A DNA stretch of 64,000 bases from the NCBI RefSeq assembly GCF_000332315.1, contig NZ_KB235937.1:299039-363038 (forward strand), written 5' to 3'. Position 1 is the first letter of the stretch; each line of letters starts with the position of its first letter. The notes beneath the pieces were generated by a model that worked only from the letters and a program-made list of their open reading frames with translations, searched no databases and was not told where the DNA came from. The stretch is from Prochlorothrix hollandica PCC 9006 = CALU 1027. GTDB taxonomy: Bacteria > Cyanobacteriota > Cyanobacteriia > Prochlorotrichales > Prochlorotrichaceae. Shown one piece after another: positions 1-50,996 of this stretch. A program made the position numbers and the translations under genes.

Positions 1-1
1 G

Positions 2-365
2 ATCGATCGCTTGTTCAGTTCCATTCCCTGGCGAAACTTTACGAACAATAACCTTGCTCACTTTGAAGGTTATTATGCTTCTGTTTTATATGCCTTCTTT
101 GCCGCTTTAGATGCACGAATTATTCCCGAAGATATTACCAACCAAGGACAAGCTGACCTGACCATTGATGCTGGGGAACCATATTTATGTTATGGAATTT
201 AAGGTTATTCCTGGAGAAACGGTGACCGACAATCCAGCCCTAGAGCAGCTACAACAGCGTCAATATGCCAGTAAATATCGAGGACAACCGGGAAAAACTG
301 TCCATGAAGTCGGCTTAGTCTTTAGTGAAGCCAAGCGGGGACTATTGCAGGCAGATTGGTGTTAG
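2..365 (+). pseudogene. PD-(D/E)XK nuclease C-terminal fragment, frameshifted and cut by window edge
   Basis: The reading frame is open to the left edge, so the 5' part lies outside the window. Residues such as GQADLTI and YVMEFKV with the following alternating charged segment resemble the C-terminal PD-(D/E)XK nuclease domain that follows an AAA-ATPase-like domain in many bacterial proteins; the acidic residue of QADL and the E-x-K of MEFK would be the metal-binding core. The two halves lie in different frames: around base 164 one extra base shifts DLTI out of register with MLGNHIYVMEFKV, and both halves match the expected domain when joined. I therefore call it a frameshifted gene (or a sequencing error). 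The family is often multicopy and of unknown role in cyanobacteria. Confidence 0.6.
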
Positions 366-415
366 ACTGGGTATCTATTTCTGCGGCGGCAGTTGCAGGC
401 TGGAGGTACGGGAGA

Positions 416-868
416 ATGACGACGATCGTTGATTTTTCAGAACGGGTGATGGGTAAGGTTCATACGGTCTTAACGGTGATTAATCGGGCGGATCAGATTC
501 GCCTCCGGGATGGAACAATTGCAGCGGATGCGGTGCGATCGATCGAGCTGCGGGAGGTGTTGGTGGATACGGGAGCGACGACGTTGTGTTTGCCACCGGA
601 GTTGATTGCTCGGTTGGGGCTGGATTTATTGAAGGAGGTGGAGGCGACGACGGCAACGGGGGTGCGATCGGTGCGAATCTTTCAGGATGCGAAGATTTGC
701 CTCTGTGGGCGGGAGGGGACGTTTGAGTGTTTGGAGTTGCCGGGTGGGTTGGATCCGCTGTTGGGGGTGATTCCGTTGGAGATGTTGGGGTTGGAGCCGG
801 ATTTGAAGCATCAGCGGCTGCGGGTGTTGCCGGAGCAGTCGGTGGATACTTATTTAACGATTTTGTAG
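416..868 (+). CDS. Retropepsin-like aspartic protease family protein
   Basis: About 150 residues. The segment VLVDTGATTLCLP is the D-T/S-G-A active-site signature of single-domain (retroviral-type) aspartic proteases, and a later LLGVIPLEMLGL segment resembles the hydrophobic flap/core strand of this fold; the protein ends in DTYLTIL. The ATG at 416 is preferred over the upstream GTG at 356 because a GGAGGTACGGGAGA stretch precedes it and because a decayed relative at 22945-23025 begins at the same residue (MTAILDLSEKVMGKVH). The Uma2 gene follows 29 bases downstream. Two further broken relatives lie at 22.9 and 23.9-24.2 kb, also beside Uma2/DUF29 genes. Substrate unknown. The family call is fairly secure, the enzymatic activity is inferred. 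Confidence 0.7.
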   Translation: MTTIVDFSERVMGKVHTVLTVINRADQIRLRDGTIAADAVRSIELREVLVDTGATTLCLPPELIARLGLDLLKEVEATTATGVRSVRIFQDAKICLCGREGTFECLELPGGLDPLLGVIPLEMLGLEPDLKHQRLRVLPEQSVDTYLTIL

Positions 869-897
869 TCTGGCACCAATAGCGGCAAGGATAGTTT

Positions 898-1644
898 ATG
901 TTGACGGCTCAACAAGTTTATGACCTCATGCCTGATGCCTCGGAACTCATGAGTGATGAACCGGAAATGGAAAGTTCTTTACACTATGAGCAACTGGCTC
1001 TTTTGGTTTCCTGTTTGGAGTGGTTTTGGCGCGATCGTCAGGATTTTTTTATTGGAGCAACTCTAACGGTTTATTACAGTCGCCAACAGTTAAAGAAACG
1101 AGACTTCCGGGGTCCAGATTTTTTCCTCGTTAGGGAAACAGAGCGCAAAGCTCGGAATTCTTGGGTGGTGTGGGAAGAAGAGGGGCGCTATCCCAACTTA
1201 ATTATTGAATTACTCTCTGATTCCACTGCTCAGGTCGATCGCAGTACCAAAAAGGTACTCTATCAAAACCATTGGCAGACTCCTGAGTATTTCTGGTTCT
1301 CGCCTAAAACTTTAGAACTTTGTGGATTTCGGTTGGGTTCTCAGCGAGTGTATGAGCCGATTGTTCCCACGGATCAGGGTTGGCTCTGGAGTCAAGAACT
1401 CGATTTGTCCCTAGGGATTCACGATCGCCAATTGCGGTATTTTGATCCTCAAGGGCACCTTGTACCGACTCTACAGGAATTTAATCGCTTAGCAATTCAA
1501 CGTACAGCACTAGAGTCACGACGGGCAGAGGCAGAAGCTCAACGGGCAGAGGCAGAAGCCCAAAAGGCACGGGAAGCGGAGGCACGGGCAAATGCTCTAG
1601 GGTTAGAAGTTGATCGTTTACGGCAACAATTAGGGGGACAATGA
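898..1644 (+). CDS. Uma2 family endonuclease-fold protein
   Basis: 248 residues. It belongs to the Uma2 (DUF820) family, a PD-(D/E)XK nuclease fold greatly expanded in cyanobacteria. GPDFF at residues 72-76 gives the first acidic residue and PNLIIELLS at 99-107 the second (E104), followed by a lysine-containing helix (RSTKKVLY) and the family's EYFWF strand. The C-terminal 50 residues are a charged helix with RAEAEAQ repeats, a predicted coiled coil. Residues 20-110 are nearly the same as in the Uma2 protein at 22163-22870, so the two are recent paralogues with diverged tails. A DUF29 gene follows after 19 bases and is probably co-transcribed. True substrate and nuclease activity are unknown for the family. 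Confidence 0.85.
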   Translation: MLTAQQVYDLMPDASELMSDEPEMESSLHYEQLALLVSCLEWFWRDRQDFFIGATLTVYYSRQQLKKRDFRGPDFFLVRETERKARNSWVVWEEEGRYPNLIIELLSDSTAQVDRSTKKVLYQNHWQTPEYFWFSPKTLELCGFRLGSQRVYEPIVPTDQGWLWSQELDLSLGIHDRQLRYFDPQGHLVPTLQEFNRLAIQRTALESRRAEAEAQRAEAEAQKAREAEARANALGLEVDRLRQQLGGQ

Positions 1645-1663
1645 ATCAATACCGAGGCTTAAG

Positions 1664-2104
1664 ATGAACAGTTCTTTGTACGAGTTGGATTATGTCCTGT
1701 GGTTAGAGAGTACGGTTGACTGCCTCCAATCGGGGGATTGGGAGGGGATCGATCGCCTGAATTTGATTGAGGAGTTGGAGGCATTGGGACGCGGTGAGCG
1801 AAGGGCTGTGGCGAGTTTGCTCAAGCAAATTTTGATTCATTTGCTGTTGTATCAGTACGGGGTTACGGAGCAGGAGCGGAATCGCAAGCATTGGGCGGCG
1901 GAGTTAGTTAATTTTCGGGATCAGTTGCAGCGCTATGTAGCTTCCCAGACTCTGAAAAACTATGCTCAGTCTGAGTTGACGGTGGTGTACAAGGTGGCTC
2001 GTTTGTTTGTGGAACGGAAGACGGAGCTAGACGGATTGCCATTGGCTTGTCCCTATAGCTTGGTTCAGATTTTGGATGAAGCGTTTTATGGGGAGGTACG
2101 GTAA
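1664..2104 (+). CDS. DUF29 family protein
   Basis: 146 residues, the usual length. It starts with the DUF29 hallmark SLYELDYVLW, then a helix with LIEELEALGR, a LLKQILIHLLLYQY helix, and a C-terminal CPYSLVQILDEAF motif. All-helical and soluble by appearance; no catalytic signature is visible. It lies 19 bases behind a Uma2 gene, repeating the Uma2/DUF29 adjacency seen between 26.4 and 28.8 kb. Function unknown for the family; the pairing suggests a partner or regulator of Uma2, which is inference only. Confidence 0.85.
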   Translation: MNSSLYELDYVLWLESTVDCLQSGDWEGIDRLNLIEELEALGRGERRAVASLLKQILIHLLLYQYGVTEQERNRKHWAAELVNFRDQLQRYVASQTLKNYAQSELTVVYKVARLFVERKTELDGLPLACPYSLVQILDEAFYGEVR

Positions 2105-2201
2105 TGAGTGAGGAGTTAGCGATTCTTTGCGGGGGGTGTCGAAGTGTTCTTGGTGCAGTACTTAATGTTTGGTTAGCTCAGGTTATAACTTTACTTTTCT
2201 T

Positions 2202-2999
2202 ATGAAAACAATTACTATTGATGGTGTATCGTTACAAAGATATATAGAGCTATTGCATGTTTTAGTTGAACGTAACCTTAAGGCTCGGTATCGTGGGTCA
2301 TTTTTGGGGGTTTACTGGTCTCTTCTGAATCCCCTAATCATGACGGGCTTGTATACTGCTATTTTTGGGGCAAATTTTGCTGAATACTATAATAATTCGA
2401 CTGTAAGCTATATTTTGGCTGCTTTTACAGGGTTGGTTGTTATCAATTTTTATAGTGCTTCTACATCACAGGCTCTATCTAGCATTGTTGGTAATGGAGG
2501 TTTGTTGAATAAAATAAAATTGCCTGTTAGTATTTTTCCAGTTTCAATGATTGTTGCTAACATCTGGCAGTTTTTTGTTGGGGTCTTGCCTATTTTAGCA
2601 ATTACTACTCTTTTAACTTCCCAAAGTTTAATAAATTTATCTGGACTCTTCTTTATTTTGATTGCCCTAGGTTTAGTTTGTTCAGGAGTAGGTTTTTTTG
2701 TGGGGACTTTATATGTTTTTTTCCGAGATTTACCTTATTTTTACGAGCTAGTTTGTTTTGTTGTCTGGATTAGTAGTCCTGTTTTTTATCCAGCCGAAAT
2801 TGTTCCTGAACAAGTCAAACCTTTCTTACTTCTGAATCCTTTAACTTCGATTATTGAATCGTTACGACAAATTTCCCTATCGGGTGAGCCACCTAGTCTT
2901 CTAATTCTCAGTAGGGCTATATTAACTGGCCTAATTTCCTTGGGTCTAGGCTGGTCATTCTTTCAGTGGCAAAAGGATAACTTCATGGATCTAATTTGA
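2202..2999 (+). CDS. wzm: Polysaccharide ABC transporter permease (Wzm/TagG type)
   Basis: 265 residues from the ATG at 2202; a TTG at 2169 in frame would add 11 residues but is less likely. The N-terminal LVERNLKARYRGSFLG is the typical amphipathic motif of ABC-2 permeases that export O-antigen, capsule or teichoic acid, followed by LLNPL and about six hydrophobic segments. An SSPVFYPAEIVP segment near residue 195 is the conserved loop of this family. The ATPase gene follows immediately, its possible upstream start overlapping this stop codon, so the two form one exporter in the inner membrane. Glycosyltransferase genes follow. Base composition from here to about 19 kb is much more AT-rich than the flanks. 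Confidence 0.88.
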   Translation: MKTITIDGVSLQRYIELLHVLVERNLKARYRGSFLGVYWSLLNPLIMTGLYTAIFGANFAEYYNNSTVSYILAAFTGLVVINFYSASTSQALSSIVGNGGLLNKIKLPVSIFPVSMIVANIWQFFVGVLPILAITTLLTSQSLINLSGLFFILIALGLVCSGVGFFVGTLYVFFRDLPYFYELVCFVVWISSPVFYPAEIVPEQVKPFLLLNPLTSIIESLRQISLSGEPPSLLILSRAILTGLISLGLGWSFFQWQKDNFMDLI

Positions 3000-3028
3000 A
3001 CTTTTTTAAAAATCTGGTTAAGTCATTC

Positions 3029-3766
3029 ATGTCTGAAATAATTCGATTAGATGATGTGTCCCTCTGGCGACGAACTCAAGAAGAGTTTTCCTATGACTTA
3101 AAGAAAACATTACTATCCTTTACGGAAGGTAAGTATCAAAAGCCTGCCAAAAAGCTAGTGATTGATAGCATAAATCTTAAAATCGATGCAGGTGAAAAAG
3201 TTGGAATTATTGGTGCAAACGGAGCGGGTAAGTCTACGTTACTAAAATTAATTTGCGGCATTTTGAAGCCAACCCATGGAACTGTTAAGGTCAAAGGAAG
3301 TATTTCACCTTTAATTGAACTGGGTGCTGGCTTTGATGGTGAGTTGCCTGTGCTCGATAATATTTTAATGTATGGAATTATGCTTGGTGCGTCTCGTCAA
3401 GATATGCATGAAAGAACTGAGTCTATTCTTGATTTTGCAGAATTAAAAGATTATGCCCATGCCCCTGTAAAGGCTTTATCTTCCGGCATGGTCGCAAGGT
3501 TGGGGTTTGCTATTGCAACAGATGTGAAGCCAGATATTTTAATATTAGATGAAGTTCTTTCAGTGGGCGATGAGAGTTTTAAAAGAAAGTCCCAAAGAAG
3601 AATGGAGGAATTTTGGGAGGATAACTCAACTATCTTAGTTGTTTCTCATTCCCTAGAGTTTATTAACCAGTCTTGTGAAAAGGCTATTTGGTTAAATCAA
3701 GGAAAAATTAGTGATGTAGGAAGAGCCTCAGATGTAATAAAGTCCTATATAAATCAGGTTATTTAG
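3029..3766 (+). CDS. wzt: Polysaccharide ABC transporter ATP-binding protein (Wzt type)
   Basis: 245 residues from the ATG at 3029 (a TTG at 2996 overlapping the permease stop is an alternative). Walker A is GANGAGKST at residues 62-70; the signature loop is LSSGMVARLGFA, Walker B ILILDEVLSVGD and the H-loop VVSHS. The YDLKK...FTEGKYQKP insertion before the core domain is typical of Wzt/TagH proteins. There is no C-terminal carbohydrate-binding extension as found in E. coli O9a-type Wzt, so export would not depend on a terminal cap recognised by Wzt. Together with the permease it would move a completed undecaprenyl-linked glycan across the inner membrane. Confidence 0.9.
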   Translation: MSEIIRLDDVSLWRRTQEEFSYDLKKTLLSFTEGKYQKPAKKLVIDSINLKIDAGEKVGIIGANGAGKSTLLKLICGILKPTHGTVKVKGSISPLIELGAGFDGELPVLDNILMYGIMLGASRQDMHERTESILDFAELKDYAHAPVKALSSGMVARLGFAIATDVKPDILILDEVLSVGDESFKRKSQRRMEEFWEDNSTILVVSHSLEFINQSCEKAIWLNQGKISDVGRASDVIKSYINQVI

Positions 3767-3782
3767 TTAATACTTCTAATCT

Positions 3783-3883
3783 ATGAATACATTTAAACTT
3801 CTCACTTTAGATCAAGTTTTACAAGACCAAAATGATCTTCAGAATCTTTGTCGGGATTGCTCCCTGACATCATCTGAATCTTT
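3783..3883 (+). pseudogene. 5' remnant of an unidentified gene cut by an IS1-family insertion
   Basis: An ATG at 3783, 17 bases after the Wzt stop, opens a frame reading MNTFKLLTLDQVLQDQNDL and continuing to about residue 33, where the left inverted repeat of the insertion sequence begins. The frame then runs six codons into the IS and stops at 3902. I do not recognise the product. No continuation is visible on the far side of the IS, where the next gene starts three bases after the IS end, so the rest was deleted. Confidence 0.45.
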
Positions 3884-4816
3884 GGTAGTGATCCCAAGGT
3901 AGTGAAAGAGAGAGGTTAGTGATAGGAGAACTATATAAAAGAGGTTGTGAATCTTCAATTTAGCATAATTTGTCAGTTTGTACAGTTGCAGATAAAATCT
4001 GGAAGGTCTAGAATTGTAAATATCACTGCACAGGATAAGCACCCATGGATCCTCAAGTTTCAGACAAATGCCCCCCCTGTCCTCACTGTCATTCCAAGCG
4101 AGTTATAAAAAATGGCAGCATTCACACTGGAAAGCCCAAGTATAAATGCAAGGACTGTAATAAACAGTTTGTGGAGAATCCAACCCCACAATGTGTCCCC
4201 CAATAGAAACGGGATATTATTGATAAATTATTGTTAGAGAAAATATCGCTCAGAGGGATAGCCAGATCTGTGGGTGTTTCTCTCTCATGGCTCCAAAGAT
4301 ATGTCAATGAAAATATCGCCAAGAGGAGTGAAAGGTATAGGACACAGGGGATCCAGAAGATGGAGTCGATGTTTTATCCTAGAAGCGGATGAACTATGGT
4401 CATTTGTAAACTCGAAAGAAAATAAACCAATGGATCTGTCTTGTCATGAATCGAAGTACTCGTCAAATCTTGGCTTGCATTGTCGGAAATCGAAGTGAAC
4501 AGTCTGCCCAAAAGTTATGGGAACAGTTACCAGAGTCATACCGAAATAACAGCATTGTTTATACAGATTTTCTGAAATCTTATGCTTGTGTGATTCCTGA
4601 AGATCAGCATCAAGCGGTAGGTAAGGAAACTGGAAATACTGCTCATATTGAGCGATTTAACAATACTTTGAGACAGCGATTATCTCGTCTAGTTCGCAAA
4701 ACTCTATCTTTTTCTAAGAGTCTTTTCAATCACATTGGGGCTATTTGGCACTTCATTCATTATTATAATGCTAACCTAGCACTTTCTTAGACCTTTACTA
4801 CCTTAGGATCACTACC
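3884..4816 (+). mobile_element. IS1-family insertion sequence (degenerate)
   Basis: A 933-bp element bounded by inverted repeats: GGTAGTGATCCCAAGGTAGT at 3884 and, on the opposite strand from 4816 inward, GGTAGTGATCCTAAGGTAGT, nearly perfect over about 24 bases. It carries a disrupted IS1-type transposase. The 8 bases on either side (GAATCTTT and ATAATGCG) do not match, so no target duplication survives. A second, truncated copy of the same element lies at 50475-50893 on the other strand. Confidence 0.85.
4045..4790 (+). pseudogene. IS1-family transposase, inactivated by a stop and two frameshifts
   Basis: The ATG at 4045 opens an N-terminal zinc-binding domain (CPPCPHCHSKRVIKNG, YKCKDCNKQF) followed by a helix-turn-helix (LRGIARSVGVSLSWLQRY) and then the DDE catalytic domain with DELWSFVNSKENK, YTDFLKSY and HIERFNNTLRQRLSRL. 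Compared with the second copy, a CAA-GAG pair has become CAA-TAG at 4204; one T is missing near 4372 in the run before ATCCTAGAAGC; and an extra C near 4430 shifts the frame before ATGAATCGAAG. The parts therefore lie in three frames and no functional protein can be made. Confidence 0.85.
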
Positions 4817-4819
4817 ATA

Positions 4820-7267
4820 ATGCGTTCTACACACAAAATCTTATTCTTTACTCCCTACGCAGGTTGGGATATTCATACTCAAGTTGATATGGTTCTTGCC
4901 AAAGCCTTAGAACTTCGTCAATGCCAGTGTCTTACTGTTTTATGTGACGGTCTCTATCAATATTGTCACTTAACGAATCGTTCAGGAAAATACACTCAAG
5001 CTGACTGCAATGCTTGTGCAGAATATGGAGTGAAAAGTTTTTCAGAAATTTTAATTCCCTTCATCCAACTTCGCAATTATATTAGTGAATCTGACTGGCG
5101 AATAGGAAGCGACTGGGTTGAAACTCTAAATATCGAAGATTATCCAAGTGCCGAGTATAACGGAGTACCTATTGGAAGTTGGATCATTTCCTCAATATAT
5201 ACATATTTTACTATTTCAACACAGCAAAGCTTACAAGATCCGAAAGTTCAAAAAGTTCATCGTCAATACTTGATTGATGGGCTAGTAACCTACATAGCAT
5301 TTTCTAGGTTGATTTACGAACATAAGCCTGATCATCTAGTTCTTTTCAATGGCCGAATTGCACCTTATCGTATTGCATTTGAAGTAGCTCAAGCCCAGGG
5401 TATAAGCACGACTTGTCACGAGCGAGGTTTTCTTGCTGAAACATTTAGTTTCTTTGAGAATCAAACATGTTTATCCATAGCATCTGGGTTAACTGGAGTC
5501 AGTTACTGGTCTGATATTGCTTTAAGTGCTCAGCAGCTTACAGATACGAAAAGATACCTAAGTAATCGAGAAGTTGGGAAGGAGTTAGCTTATCCTTCTT
5601 TTTACTCTAAAAATGACACACATACTGACATCAGAAAACGCTTAAATATTCCACAAAGCCAAAAAATTGTTTGTATCTTTACATCTAGTGAAGATGAGCT
5701 AGCCAGTAGTGAAGAATATTTAGATCTACAAAATCAGTTAACCATTATTCAGAGATTAATCAATATTTTTAGAAAACGTGATGAGTGCCTAGTGATTCGT
5801 CACCACCCTCGTATTGCTAGCATGACACATGGTATACCTGACTACACCTTTATAAATCGAGCTTACACGCAGGCATTTTCAGATCTTCCATCTAATGTTC
5901 GTATTGTTATGCCTCAAGAGCCACTCACTGTATATTCGCTATTTTGGCATGTTGATCTAGTAATTGCTCTCATTAGTACTGTTGCAATTGAAGCACTTAC
6001 AAGAGGTATTAAAACTATCACCTTAAACTCATCATCTTATTCTAGTGTTGCAAGTTCTACTTTCTCTACTCAAACTTCTGAAGTCAAGATAAATGCCATT
6101 ATAGATAAACTTCTAGAAAGCAGTAAAACTATTGATATTGACAGTATAAGTAAAAGTTATAGATTTGCCCATGCTTTTTTTATTCAATCCTCTCGCAAGT
6201 TTAAATCTTTTGGTACTGTTGACACACATCGTAGTAATATACGAATTAAAAACTGGTTGGAATTAAATCCGGGTATTGACCCTACACTAGATCAAATTTG
6301 TAATCATATTATTTATAAAGATAATTTATATATCTTACCTAATGCTGAGGACAATGCAAGATCTAGAACTGAAGAAGAATACTTTTTCAGACAAGAGTTG
6401 CAAAGGATACAAACTTACAGATCTAAAGTCCAGGCGACATGCCTTAATACATTGCATAGCAATTTAGCTGTAATTAATGTAGCGACAAGATCTTCTCAAG
6501 CTCAATCTTCATCTCACTTAAACTCATGGCTCAAGAACTCTCGGCATTATCCCATACAAAAAGAAGAGTTACTTATCTCAAATAACTGGCAACACGACAT
6601 AGAAAAATTAATTGATTCCATCGAAAACTGTAAATTTTCCTATATTTTAGTTACAAATCAAAATTTTGAGTATGATCCGTCTTTTGTTATTTATGCTTTA
6701 AATTATTGTCAAACTCATCAGTCATGTGTAGTGACTTCAGAGGCATGGATTCGAGATATAGACCGTCAAATTAAATCACATAGAAAGATCTATCAAGTAA
6801 ACAAAACCGATGATTTAGAATTTATATATTCACATCCTCTTATGATGCTAGGTTTTTTTATTTTTGAAAAAAAACTGTTATTAGAGTTTTTACAGGAAAT
6901 AAAAATCATAAAAGATTCAAAAGAACTAACGGTTAAAGTTATTCACTACTTTAAAAATCCCTTTATTTATACGCTCCCCTTCCCTGCGATCATTGTTCAA
7001 ACACCAGTAAAACATTACCCTGAAGCTTATTTTCTTAGCCTTCTGAGTCAAACTCAAGATCAACTGAGTCAAACTCAAGATCAACTGAGTCAAACTCAAG
7101 ATCAACTAATAACATTAAATAGGAATTATCAAGATATTCAAGAAGAGTATCAAAAGCTAACTCGGCTTGCTCATGAAGCATTACTAGAACTAGCTAGCAT
7201 AAAGAGTAGTAACTTTTGGAAAATTCGTAGTATTTGGTTTCGCCTCAGAAAAATAATGACTAGGTAA
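4820..7267 (+). CDS. Large capsule-type glycosyltransferase with C-terminal coiled-coil tail
   Basis: 815 residues. The N-terminal half opens with ILFFTPYAGWDIHTQ and contains VIRHHPRI near residue 325 and a LVIALISTVAIEALTRG segment, the pattern of GT-B transferases related to capsule-synthesis and CDP-glycerol/polysialyl transferases. Residues 550-740 form a second, unrecognised alpha/beta region. Near residue 742 the heptad LSQTQDQ is repeated three times, encoded by a perfect 21-bp tandem repeat, and runs into an EEYQKLTRLAHEALLEL tail shared with the next two genes. The ATG lies three bases beyond the IS1 right end and has no visible ribosome-binding site, so native 5' sequence may have been lost. 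Acceptor and donor sugars unknown. Confidence 0.65.
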   Translation: MRSTHKILFFTPYAGWDIHTQVDMVLAKALELRQCQCLTVLCDGLYQYCHLTNRSGKYTQADCNACAEYGVKSFSEILIPFIQLRNYISESDWRIGSDWVETLNIEDYPSAEYNGVPIGSWIISSIYTYFTISTQQSLQDPKVQKVHRQYLIDGLVTYIAFSRLIYEHKPDHLVLFNGRIAPYRIAFEVAQAQGISTTCHERGFLAETFSFFENQTCLSIASGLTGVSYWSDIALSAQQLTDTKRYLSNREVGKELAYPSFYSKNDTHTDIRKRLNIPQSQKIVCIFTSSEDELASSEEYLDLQNQLTIIQRLINIFRKRDECLVIRHHPRIASMTHGIPDYTFINRAYTQAFSDLPSNVRIVMPQEPLTVYSLFWHVDLVIALISTVAIEALTRGIKTITLNSSSYSSVASSTFSTQTSEVKINAIIDKLLESSKTIDIDSISKSYRFAHAFFIQSSRKFKSFGTVDTHRSNIRIKNWLELNPGIDPTLDQICNHIIYKDNLYILPNAEDNARSRTEEEYFFRQELQRIQTYRSKVQATCLNTLHSNLAVINVATRSSQAQSSSHLNSWLKNSRHYPIQKEELLISNNWQHDIEKLIDSIENCKFSYILVTNQNFEYDPSFVIYALNYCQTHQSCVVTSEAWIRDIDRQIKSHRKIYQVNKTDDLEFIYSHPLMMLGFFIFEKKLLLEFLQEIKIIKDSKELTVKVIHYFKNPFIYTLPFPAIIVQTPVKHYPEAYFLSLLSQTQDQLSQTQDQLSQTQDQLITLNRNYQDIQEEYQKLTRLAHEALLELASIKSSNFWKIRSIWFRLRKIMTR

Positions 7268-48006: not shown

Positions 48007-48019
48007 CCTGTCGGCTCGT

Positions 48020-48106
48020 CTTTTGAAGCCCCGATCCCCGGTTTCTGAGGCGGAGTTGTCCACTGGTCTGCGTTGAAGCCCAGATCCCCGGTTTCTGGGG
48101 GAGTGT
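48020..48106. repeat. Two short repeats AGCCC(C/A)GATCCCCGGTTTCTG
   Basis: GATCCCCGGTTTCTG occurs at about 48032 and again at about 48082; the reverse form CAGAACCGGGGATTTTTG occurs at about 54187. A dispersed short motif without other features. Confidence 0.6.
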
Positions 48107-48225: not shown

Positions 48226-49113
48226 CTAGGAAGTAGAGTCCGAAACTGTCAGCGCCGCCTCCCAAAGTTGCCTTGCTTGGCTGGGATTTTGGTTATATAG
48301 TGATACAAAACTCCGAGCGCAGTTGGTGTGGGGAGACTGGCAAGACGTGTATAAGTCTATAACTCTCATAGCCGAGTTCCTCGCATCACCTGTTGCACCA
48401 TCAGCTAAAATTTCCAGTTGTGGAAACAATGCAATCATGATTCTAACCCGCTCTAAAAATAAATTTTTGCGACCGATGACATCATCCAACTTGAAAAGCT
48501 CAATGGTGACCAAGGCACGATCGTGATCGTGCCCTTCACTCACAACGGGGCATGGAGATATACCCTCAAAGCGAATGAGGGCTTCTGGTGCTTTATCAAA
48601 GTCACCGATCGGGTAGATCAAATACGGTTGTTCTGCCTGCAACAAGGCAACGGGATCATGACCAGACAAGTCATATGTCCCAGCAATGGGGAAGTAGGTC
48701 TCCTTTAATACTGAGTTACAGGGTTTGCAAGCCACAGCGTAATTAAAGAGGTGATAGGGGAGTAGATAGTAACCGCCTGTCCCGTTGGGTACTGGGGTTG
48801 GTGTAATTCCCTGCTGACTTAAAACCGAAGATAGAGACCATCCTTTAACGTTACCTTTGGGTCGAAAATGTTCGATGTCATACTCAGATTTACCATAAAC
48901 TTCGCCCTCTAACTGGCGCTCACAGTATGCACATTTACCGCCTTGAAGCCGAATATAAACGGTCTTAATCTCACTCCACATAGGGCTTCGCTCTGCATAA
49001 CGTCTCTGTTGGCGAAAATTTGTAGTGCGCTGTGTGGCCCTATTAATCCAATTAGGACTCTTTTGGGCCACTAACGCTGCTAAGTCATTGTAGGAAATTT
49101 GATATCCAATCAT
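48226..49113 (-). CDS. HNH endonuclease, Septu PtuB-like
   Basis: 295 residues. CAYCERQL at 61-68, YDIEHFRPKG at 78-87 and CKPCN at 129-133 make the Cys-x2-Cys, His and second Cys pair of an HNH nuclease with a structural zinc. The long C-terminal part (residues 150-295) is alpha-helical and not recognised. Its start codon overlaps the stop of the ATPase gene (TAATG), so the two are translationally coupled. AAA ATPase plus HNH nuclease is the composition of the Septu anti-phage system, in which the ATPase complex controls the nuclease. Assignment to Septu is by composition and order, not by experiment. Confidence 0.75.
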   Translation of the reverse strand: MIGYQISYNDLAALVAQKSPNWINRATQRTTNFRQQRRYAERSPMWSEIKTVYIRLQGGKCAYCERQLEGEVYGKSEYDIEHFRPKGNVKGWSLSSVLSQQGITPTPVPNGTGGYYLLPYHLFNYAVACKPCNSVLKETYFPIAGTYDLSGHDPVALLQAEQPYLIYPIGDFDKAPEALIRFEGISPCPVVSEGHDHDRALVTIELFKLDDVIGRKNLFLERVRIMIALFPQLEILADGATGDARNSAMRVIDLYTSCQSPHTNCARSFVSLYNQNPSQARQLWEAALTVSDSTS

Positions 49114-50357
49114 TACAGCGCCTCCCGCCCTTGGGACATCTGTTGCAGTAAAGCCAGTGCGGCCTCCGGATCCCCGTCCCTTGCTCTTAGTGTGAGAGCT
49201 TTTAAGTTTCGGGTTTGGTCAGCAGTCCGGGTGCTCTTAAGACCAAAATAACCTGTGAGCAACACCTGATCTGCATCCAGCCCACGTACCGGTTGTTTTA
49301 GTCGTTGAATTCTACTGGCTTGCCCCTTTATGGGATCCATTAGCATAATGTTCATCCATTCCAGCGACCCGACTAGAAGCGGGCTATGGGAAGTCACAAT
49401 AAATTGGATCTTGGGTAACTGTTTAGCCAGTTGACCTAGGATTTTCATTTGCCATTCTGGATGGAGATGGAGATCAATCTCGTCAACCATGACGATTCCC
49501 TGATTGTCAACCAATCTCTTACCACTCGGACAGGTCATACAGACATGGTAAAGTAAGTCCCCAATCCAGCCCAGGAAAGCTCTATATCCATCCGATAAGG
49601 CTGGGAATGGGACTCTAAGCCCTTTTCGGCTAAAAATATATTCGCCTTCCTCTAGCTCACCTTGGAATTTATAGTGATTTGCACCAATCAAACGATCAAT
49701 TAAAGTGACGACTTGCTTAAACCGATCTGGGCTTTCGACCTCCAATTTGGGTAGCCAGGAGTTGAGGGGAATCAATGAATGGGATTCTTCAAAAAGACTT
49801 TGAACCCGTTGGGCACGGATAAATGCAGAGCCGTTGCGACTTCCCAAGTCCACACGTTCCGCTTTCTCAACTCGCCGAGATGCCCCATACCCGACAAAGA
49901 AAAATGCATCTGAGGTAGCGCTGAAGATAGGGTGCCAGCCCTTCTCCTCTGGATGAGTCCAGCGTAAAGATTCCAAATCCCCGCGCCGCAAAACAGTAAC
50001 CTCAGACTCAATATGTTTAAACTGGGAGGGAGTCTGATCTTGTGTGTGAGGAGTAAATGTAGCTTTAATGCAAGCTTGATCAGGTTGGGGAGATTTTGTG
50101 TAGGTATCCGGTTCTCGACGAATGAGGCAATAGGGAAAGATCCCAGAATCACTAACTGAGGGACCAAGGGCAGCTAAGGCGATCGCCTTAAGTAAGGTAG
50201 TTTTTCCAAGTCCATTGATGCCCAGTACAAGGTTAATGTTGGATATCCTTGGTCTAGGCATTTCGAGCGATTCAAAGTCACAATCTTGGTGAATAAAATT
50301 GATTTGTGTATTACGAAACGTGCGAAATTTTTGAATTTTGATTGAGTCGATATACAT
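49113..50357 (-). CDS. AAA ATPase, Septu PtuA-like
   Basis: 414 residues from ATG 50357 (another in-frame ATG lies at 50375). MYIDSIKIQKFRTFRNTQ is the usual opening of this OLD/RecF-like ATPase group; Walker A is GINGLGKTT at 46-54, Walker B with the DEIDLHLHP motif near residue 285, and a TSHSPLLVGSLEW motif follows. Between them is a long insert. Upstream lies an IS1 remnant, so the promoter may sit in the 100 bases between. Coupled to the HNH gene. The intact motifs suggest a functional system. Confidence 0.78.
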   Translation of the reverse strand: MYIDSIKIQKFRTFRNTQINFIHQDCDFESLEMPRPRISNINLVLGINGLGKTTLLKAIALAALGPSVSDSGIFPYCLIRREPDTYTKSPQPDQACIKATFTPHTQDQTPSQFKHIESEVTVLRRGDLESLRWTHPEEKGWHPIFSATSDAFFFVGYGASRRVEKAERVDLGSRNGSAFIRAQRVQSLFEESHSLIPLNSWLPKLEVESPDRFKQVVTLIDRLIGANHYKFQGELEEGEYIFSRKGLRVPFPALSDGYRAFLGWIGDLLYHVCMTCPSGKRLVDNQGIVMVDEIDLHLHPEWQMKILGQLAKQLPKIQFIVTSHSPLLVGSLEWMNIMLMDPIKGQASRIQRLKQPVRGLDADQVLLTGYFGLKSTRTADQTRNLKALTLRARDGDPEAALALLQQMSQGREAL

Positions 50358-50474
50358 AGATATTAATATGCCCATTTACAAATTCGAGCTAGGGAAAATG
50401 GTTTTAGAATGTTCCACTCAACATCGCTCCGATCGCTGGGATAGACAGAACAGTTGAGGCAGCAATGATGGTTC

Positions 50475-50893
50475 AAGTTTACAAATGACCATAGTTCATC
50501 CACTGCTAGGATAAAAACATCGACTCCATCTTCTGATCCCCTGTGTCCTCTACCTTCAACTTCTCTTGGCGATATTTTCATTCACATATCTTTGGAGCCA
50601 TGAGAGAGAAACACCCACAGATCTGGCTATCCCTCTGAGCGATATTTTCTCTAACAATAATTTATCAATAATATCCCGTTTCTCTTGAGGGACACATTGT
50701 GGGGTTGGATTCTCCACAAACTGCTTATTACAGTCCTTGCATTTATACTTGGGCTTCCCAGTGTGAATGCTGCCATTTTTTATAACTCGCTTGGAATGAC
50801 AGTGAGGACAGGGGGGGCGTTTGTCTGAAACTTGAGGATCCATGGGTGCTTATCCTGTGCAGTGATATTTACAATTCTAGACCTTCCAGATTT
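50475..50893 (-). mobile_element. IS1-family remnant, second copy
   Basis: On the minus strand, MDPQVSDKRPPCPHCHSKRV, YKCKDCNKQF and the helix-turn-helix LRGIARSVGVSLSWLQRY are intact in an open frame from 50843 to 50556 ending ENIAKRS. The start of the catalytic part (VDVFILAVDELWSFVN) follows in another frame and is cut at 50475. Neither inverted repeat remains; the left part is replaced by the 103-bp element. Versus the copy at 3884 it lacks the early TAG and the T deletion. Confidence 0.8.
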
Positions 50894-50996
50894 TACAGCA
50901 ACCCTAAATCAGTTGTAGGCATCTTGATGGCTGAAGCCCTTGGTGTGGTGTGCCCCCTCCGGGGGCACACCACACGACCCATTTAGGACTGCTGTA
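50894..50996 (-). mobile_element. 103-bp miniature element (TA type), copy F, inverted
   Basis: Minus-strand orientation: TACAGCAGTCCTAAATGGG ... GATTTAGGGTTGCTGTA. It abuts the IS1 remnant, whose sequence ends at a TA exactly where the element starts (CCAGATTTTA), so it inserted into the IS and the far side was later lost. Confidence 0.85.

Follow-up and report, generated by a model that had tools for sequence, protein, structure and literature searches.

At this locus of the window (the whole stretch of 64,000 nucleotides that was analysed), ptuA is followed directly by ptuB on the same strand (Table 1), which is the gene order of type I Septu. At the junction (GGAGGCGCTGTAATG), the TAA stop codon of ptuA and the ATG of ptuB have one base in common, and a Shine-Dalgarno-like GGAGG lies just upstream of this ATG within the same sequence; the one-base overlap is compatible with translational coupling of the two genes. 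A translationally coupled ATPase and HNH pair with five of the motifs listed in Table 1 (GINGLGKTT, DEIDLHLHP, CAYC, IEHFRPK, and CKPCN) had been described in an earlier sequence-only reading, and both open reading frames are indeed open and complete, so that the pair is intact, as had been claimed. The longest ptuA frame begins at 50375 and encodes 420 aa, but the start used in Table 1, as in that reading, is the better one because the conserved MYIDSI found there fits the PADLOC model, with query residue 7 of the longer frame falling on model position 1. The Septu pair is present in one copy in the whole genome. It is flanked by a cimA-like gene and a pullulanase, and no tRNA genes were found within the window.

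Table 1. Positions of the ptuA/ptuB pair, its protein motifs and the adjacent insertion sequence fragment
Feature	Position	Strand	Description	Basis
ptuA	49113..50357	(-)	ABC/AAA-type ATPase, 414 aa	complete open frame
ptuB	48226..49113	(-)	HNH nuclease, 295 aa	complete open frame
ptuA/ptuB junction	49111..49125	(-)	GGAGGCGCTGTAATG	direct sequence
PtuA Walker A	residues 46-54 of 414 aa		GINGLGKTT	sequence
PtuA LSDGYRAF	residues 254-261			sequence
PtuA Walker B	residues 292-300		DEIDLHLHP	sequence
PtuA TSHSP	residues 322-326			sequence
PtuB CxxC	residues 61-64 of 295 aa		CAYC	sequence
PtuB IEHFRPK	residues 80-86		EHFRPK at 81-86	sequence
PtuB N124	residue 124			sequence
PtuB CxxCN	residues 129-133		CKPCN	sequence
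PtuB C-terminal part	48226..48678 (residues 146-295)	(-)	small mixed part, then helices
IS1-like insertion sequence fragment	50472..50902	(-)	weak Zn_ribbon_InsA match	22.3 bits, under the Pfam cut-off of 26.1

Family assignment and conservation of the two proteins

The PtuA/PtuB plan of Septu, to which the sequence-only reading had assigned the pair, is supported by profile matches, by sequence and fold matches to solved chains, by the gene order in relatives, and by the way the two proteins have diverged in parallel. Searches with Septu profiles gave near full-length matches of PtuA to PADLOC model PDLC00301 (PtuA1; 462.6 bits, model positions 1-408 of 429) and of PtuB to PDLC00318 (PtuB1; 277.9 bits, model positions 1-285 of 299). 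The further PADLOC models listed are mostly PtuA and PtuB as well. Two long 'PtuA1' models (PDLC00292 and PDLC00288) match PtuB with their first part and PtuA with their second, suggesting that natural PtuB-PtuA fusions may underlie them. In Pfam, PtuA matches AAA_21 (75.9 bits), and the best match of PtuB (13.5 bits) is under the cut-off; the HNH family matches only 4 of 51 aligned PtuB rows at E 0.01. The NCBIfam TIGR02646 model gives 29.4 bits, against a cut-off of 52.15.

A seven-row PtuB alignment, all seven members of which match PDLC00318, was searched against 84,980 species genomes; at least 490 relatives were found and 80 were kept. A scan of the same collection with the single PtuB protein found no relatives, and a search of 39 genomes, the source genome included, gave a match in the source genome only. 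At 76 of the 80 related loci, more than chance would explain, a PtuA-like ORF adjoins the PtuB ORF upstream on the same strand, with a four-base overlap in 42 of these 76 (longest frames were used, and some overlaps are inflated). L036, L089, and L095 are without a PtuA-like ORF, and L100 is without a PtuB ORF; for L036 and L089 the available stretch extends only about 100-260 bases ahead of the PtuB match. The PtuB frame is broken in L077, and the PtuA frame is partial in L032 and L053. Five near-full-length relatives on plasmids (Rhizobium, Agrobacterium, and Sphingobium) have the same gene order, and the plasmid records examined label PtuB 'hypothetical protein'. No phage record gave a match at E 1e-5. 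Pairwise distances of PtuA and PtuB are correlated across 41 common rows (rho 0.71, with no more than 0.46 in 1000 permutations), which fits joint inheritance of the pair.

Some of the related loci differ in their make-up. In L015 (Ruegeria pomeroyi megaplasmid, 1-6801), a 986-aa AAA ATPase and a CHAT-domain protein immediately precede a distant PtuB-like HNH protein, perhaps making up a related three-gene system with it. In a Candidatus Aminicenantes bin (L096, 5567-7900), a PtuA-like ATPase frame with a calcineurin-like phosphoesterase domain lies beside a PtuB-like gene. The PtuA frames of L073 (5284-8004) and L080 (5245-8004) are of 906 and 919 aa, which could be due to a real added domain or to an over-long frame; in L073, about 490 residues before the ATPase part match no Pfam family at E 0.001. 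A DUF2235 gene is found directly upstream of ptuA on a Rhizobium plasmid (L011, 5509-6615) and on a Sphingobium plasmid (L014, 5404-6552), in opposite orientations.

Conserved residues were identified from a 51-row PtuB alignment and a 46-row PtuA alignment, which take 50 and 45 of the 80 loci, respectively, chosen mostly for complete frames and spread; not every complete-frame locus was used, and L058 stands for the near-duplicate pair L058 and L059. On these alignments, which include the window rows, PtuA K52, D292, and H324 are invariant and E293 is kept in at least 90 % of rows, and C61, C64, H82, N124, C129, C132, and N133 of PtuB are invariant (51 out of 51 rows). PtuA therefore has the Walker A, signature, Walker B, and H-loop of a type I Septu ATPase, and PtuB has the Cys pairs and the H and N residues of its HNH nuclease.

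Among solved chains, those nearest to PtuA in sequence are the PtuAs of retrons (best E 7.6e-21), along with 8ee4, the PtuA of E. coli Septu (E 1.5e-17). The single-chain AlphaFold2 model of PtuA (mean pLDDT 90.4) is best matched by retron Ec78 9nnb_D (Z 30.8, rmsd 4.8, 375 aligned) and by E. coli Septu 8eea_D (Z 30.5, rmsd 4.8, 376 aligned) and 8ee4_E (Z 30.4, rmsd 3.3, 339 aligned), which are within ties, and SMC and Rad50 heads rank after the PtuA chains (Z of 20.6 or less). With Foldseek the top match is 8eea_C, a chain of the E. coli Septu complex. Only 19-23 % of the structurally aligned residues are identical. Residue 1 of the model aligns with residue 1 of E. coli Septu PtuA and with residue 45-64 of the retron PtuA chains.

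For PtuB, a profile of the seven PtuB rows matched seven distinct sequences among solved chains at E up to 1, labelled as PtuB, TIGR02646 family, and retron Ec78 HNH endonuclease. The single-chain AlphaFold2 model has high confidence over nearly its whole length (mean pLDDT 96.3) and matches 9u9y_H (Z 16.6, rmsd 3.2, 196 aligned) and E. coli Septu 8eea_G (Z 14.8, rmsd 3.7, 206 aligned), against Z 5.1 for the best rows that are not PtuB; here too identity is low (14-23 %). The retron-type PtuB 22bv_F is matched in two halves, its residues 28-64 by positions 46-89 and its residues 109-174 by positions 170-233, and the intervening stretch is about 36 residues longer in the window protein. N124 sits 42 residues past H82. 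The mutated residues of PtuB in Septu EcB88, H75 and N91, are 16 apart in the report on that system (PMC13096335), and N124 would correspond to its N91.

The last 150 residues of PtuB had been set aside in the sequence-only reading as an unrecognised part that might define a subtype, and this is not supported. PDLC00318 aligns to PtuB residues 1-288, and most solved PtuBs match the model structurally from residue 1 to 271-276. In the 51 rows, 16 positions of the 150-residue part reach at least 90 % conservation, 13 of them in 146-230 and three in 231-295, where conservation is lowest among the stretches compared. These three results speak against a new C-terminal domain or subtype, the last helix (277-294) lying outside the structural match. 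The folds of both models are those of type I Septu when compared with the 8eea chains, with PtuB residues 277-295 outside the matched range. Judged from the model, the C-terminal part is, last helix aside, mostly the standard C-terminal part of PtuB. It probably looked unfamiliar because Pfam hardly detects PtuB. Within it, H262, C265, and R267 are kept in 40, 47, and 46 of the 51 rows, respectively. The clearer difference from the solved retron PtuB is the additional stretch between the matched halves, rather than the C-terminal part.

Genomic surroundings and origin

The sequence-only reading had placed the pair among broken mobile elements. One such element was checked, the IS1-like fragment (Table 1), and it is truncated. 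It lies 114 bases upstream of the ptuA start, has a GC content of 42 %, and has two other copies in the genome at 96 % identity (window 3985-4416 and G000:C1:242868-243301). Against it lies a repeat of about 103 bp (window 50894-50996) with complementary ends and an internal palindrome, which is matched at 44 or more other places in the genome (40 of 598 candidates were scored) and looks like a miniature transposable element. Another short repeat is present just after the cimA-like gene (window 48015-48099), parts of which match 16 other places in the genome at 74-100 %. No defence island is supported around the pair, as only two of ten nearby ORFs scanned with PADLOC gave matches, both weak and over short stretches (a CARF/LolE-type model, 35 bits, and a GlgB-type model, 33.6 bits), and neither is a clear defence gene.

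The pair has a GC content of 46 % and a GC3 of 44 %, compared with 55-62 % and 66-74 %, respectively, in six chosen neighbouring genes; the window overall has a GC content of 48.9 %, and other low-GC stretches therefore exist in it. At E 1e-10, PDLC00318 matches six out of 386 genomes sampled from the source phylum, the source genome included; the other 385 contain one close PtuB (281 bits) and four weaker ones (56-87 bits), and there was no match in 14 control genomes. In the PtuB tree, the window row is beside a Bacteroidota row (L021, support 89) and surrounded by rows from Acidobacteriota, Chlorobiota, Verrucomicrobiota, Planctomycetota, and Pseudomonadota. Phyla hardly cluster in this tree (30 changes, shuffled mean 32.1), in which many rows are metagenome bins and such counts of changes are no proof of transfer. 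The low GC content, the nearby IS1-like fragment, and the rarity of the pair in the phylum alongside its presence in many others suggest that it was gained by horizontal transfer.

Probable mode of action and alternative explanations

It is highly likely that ptuA and ptuB together make up a complete anti-phage system of the stand-alone (type I) Septu kind, probably acquired by horizontal transfer. By its profile matches the pair is a typical Septu, falling inside an already modelled subfamily, rather than a new kind of system. A single transcript carrying both genes is likely to give rise to PtuA and PtuB. If they behave like their E. coli counterparts, the two proteins would assemble into a complex that does no harm to a healthy cell; some change in the course of phage infection, presumably sensed via the ATPase PtuA, would then switch PtuB to cleavage of nucleic acid, and phage growth would be halted, probably at some cost to the host. 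A phage-triggered nuclease complex is therefore the likely mechanism, with complex, trigger, and protection all modelled on the relatives that have been studied. For E. coli, a 6:2 PtuA-PtuB complex is given in a review table (PMC12948488), and another review lists the activating signal of Septu as unclear (PMC12198126). Septu EcB88 is reported to be anti-phage and to need both enzyme activities, on the basis of PtuA K43 or D316 and PtuB H75 or N91 mutants, and, when T6 infects, to cleave the variable loop of tRNA-Tyr (PMC13096335). Likewise, retron-Eco7 PtuAB is reported to deplete tRNA-Tyr, and the discussion of the same paper describes the Septu of E. coli ATCC 25922 as acting on nicked DNA (PMC11555353).

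The target here may be either phage DNA or a tRNA. It is conceivable, but rather unlikely, that the subfamily with about 36 extra PtuB residues and the C-terminal H262, C265, and R267 recognises a different nucleic acid target than the E. coli systems, such as another tRNA or a phage-specific structure. The window pair is in itself ordinary. It adds an intact Septu to a lineage in which close relatives are rare, and members of its PtuAB subfamily are found across many phyla. Different substrates, nicked DNA and tRNA-Tyr, are reported for two E. coli Septu systems, so a distant member such as this would be a fair test of the target range.

The chains of retron Ec78 PtuA and PtuB are among the closest solved structures to the window pair, and the genome has two reverse transcriptase (RVT_1) matches, as might be expected if the pair were the effector part of a type I-A retron (Septu type II), with its reverse transcriptase and non-coding RNA lost or elsewhere. 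In Septu type II, ptuAB have a reverse transcriptase before them, and these systems are reported to be the same as type I-A retrons (PMC8565338). However, both matches are on other contigs (C9 and C6), with none on the contig of the window (C5; 867,943 bases), and PtuA is without the retron-type N-terminal extension; the pair is therefore assigned to type I. In addition, nine out of 40 genomes with relatives, many of them draft bins, have no reverse transcriptase match. Of the 31 with such matches, the complete genomes of L028 and L055 were compared and have none near the pair. A retron origin for the pair is very unlikely on this evidence.

Four of the five plasmid relatives are on plasmids typed as conjugative, and the window pair lies near a broken insertion sequence, so a Septu-family nuclease-ATPase pair serving in competition between mobile elements, for example against plasmids, and not mainly against phage, was also considered. 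Carriage of defence genes by plasmids is common, however, and two of the five plasmid relatives have another likely defence gene no more than 5 kb away, L011 a CBASS cyclase and L012 an N-6 DNA methylase. With Septu EcB88 also reported to be anti-phage (PMC13096335), such a role is very unlikely. Nor is it at all probable that the pair is a decaying remnant that no longer works, as both frames are complete and the residues that are invariant in the alignments are kept. In favour of a remnant, the nearest mobile element is truncated, and neither promoter-like sites (five at the pair, mean 4.2 in shuffles) nor terminator-like sites (five, mean 3.4) are in excess, but this consensus scan is poorly informative on real promoters.

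Comparison with known systems

The stand-alone type I Septu assignment is consistent with the E. coli Septu PtuAB (PDB 8eea, 8ee4, and 8sux), which likewise combines an ABC-type ATPase with an HNH nuclease and is aligned over residues 1..412 of the window PtuA (Z 30.5) and 1..276 of PtuB (Z 14.8). Identity in these alignments is low, however, at 20 % for PtuA and 14 % for PtuB, and the window PtuB has 295 aa, compared with 234 residues in the solved chain.

The PtuA/PtuB effectors of the type I-A retrons (Ec78 or Eco7, and Ec83) have the same ATPase and HNH folds (9nnb_D, Z 30.8; 9u9y_H, Z 16.6). Retrons have a reverse transcriptase and msDNA, and their PtuA chains carry about 44-63 more N-terminal residues than that of the window. 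The pair is also far under the NCBIfam cut-offs for the retron Ec78 proteins, with 118.5 bits for PtuA (NF041760, cut-off 500) and 31.7 bits for PtuB (NF041761, cut-off 150). The best matches of all are the PADLOC Septu type I models PDLC00301 and PDLC00318, which cover nearly the whole length of both proteins and from which no difference was found in the window pair.
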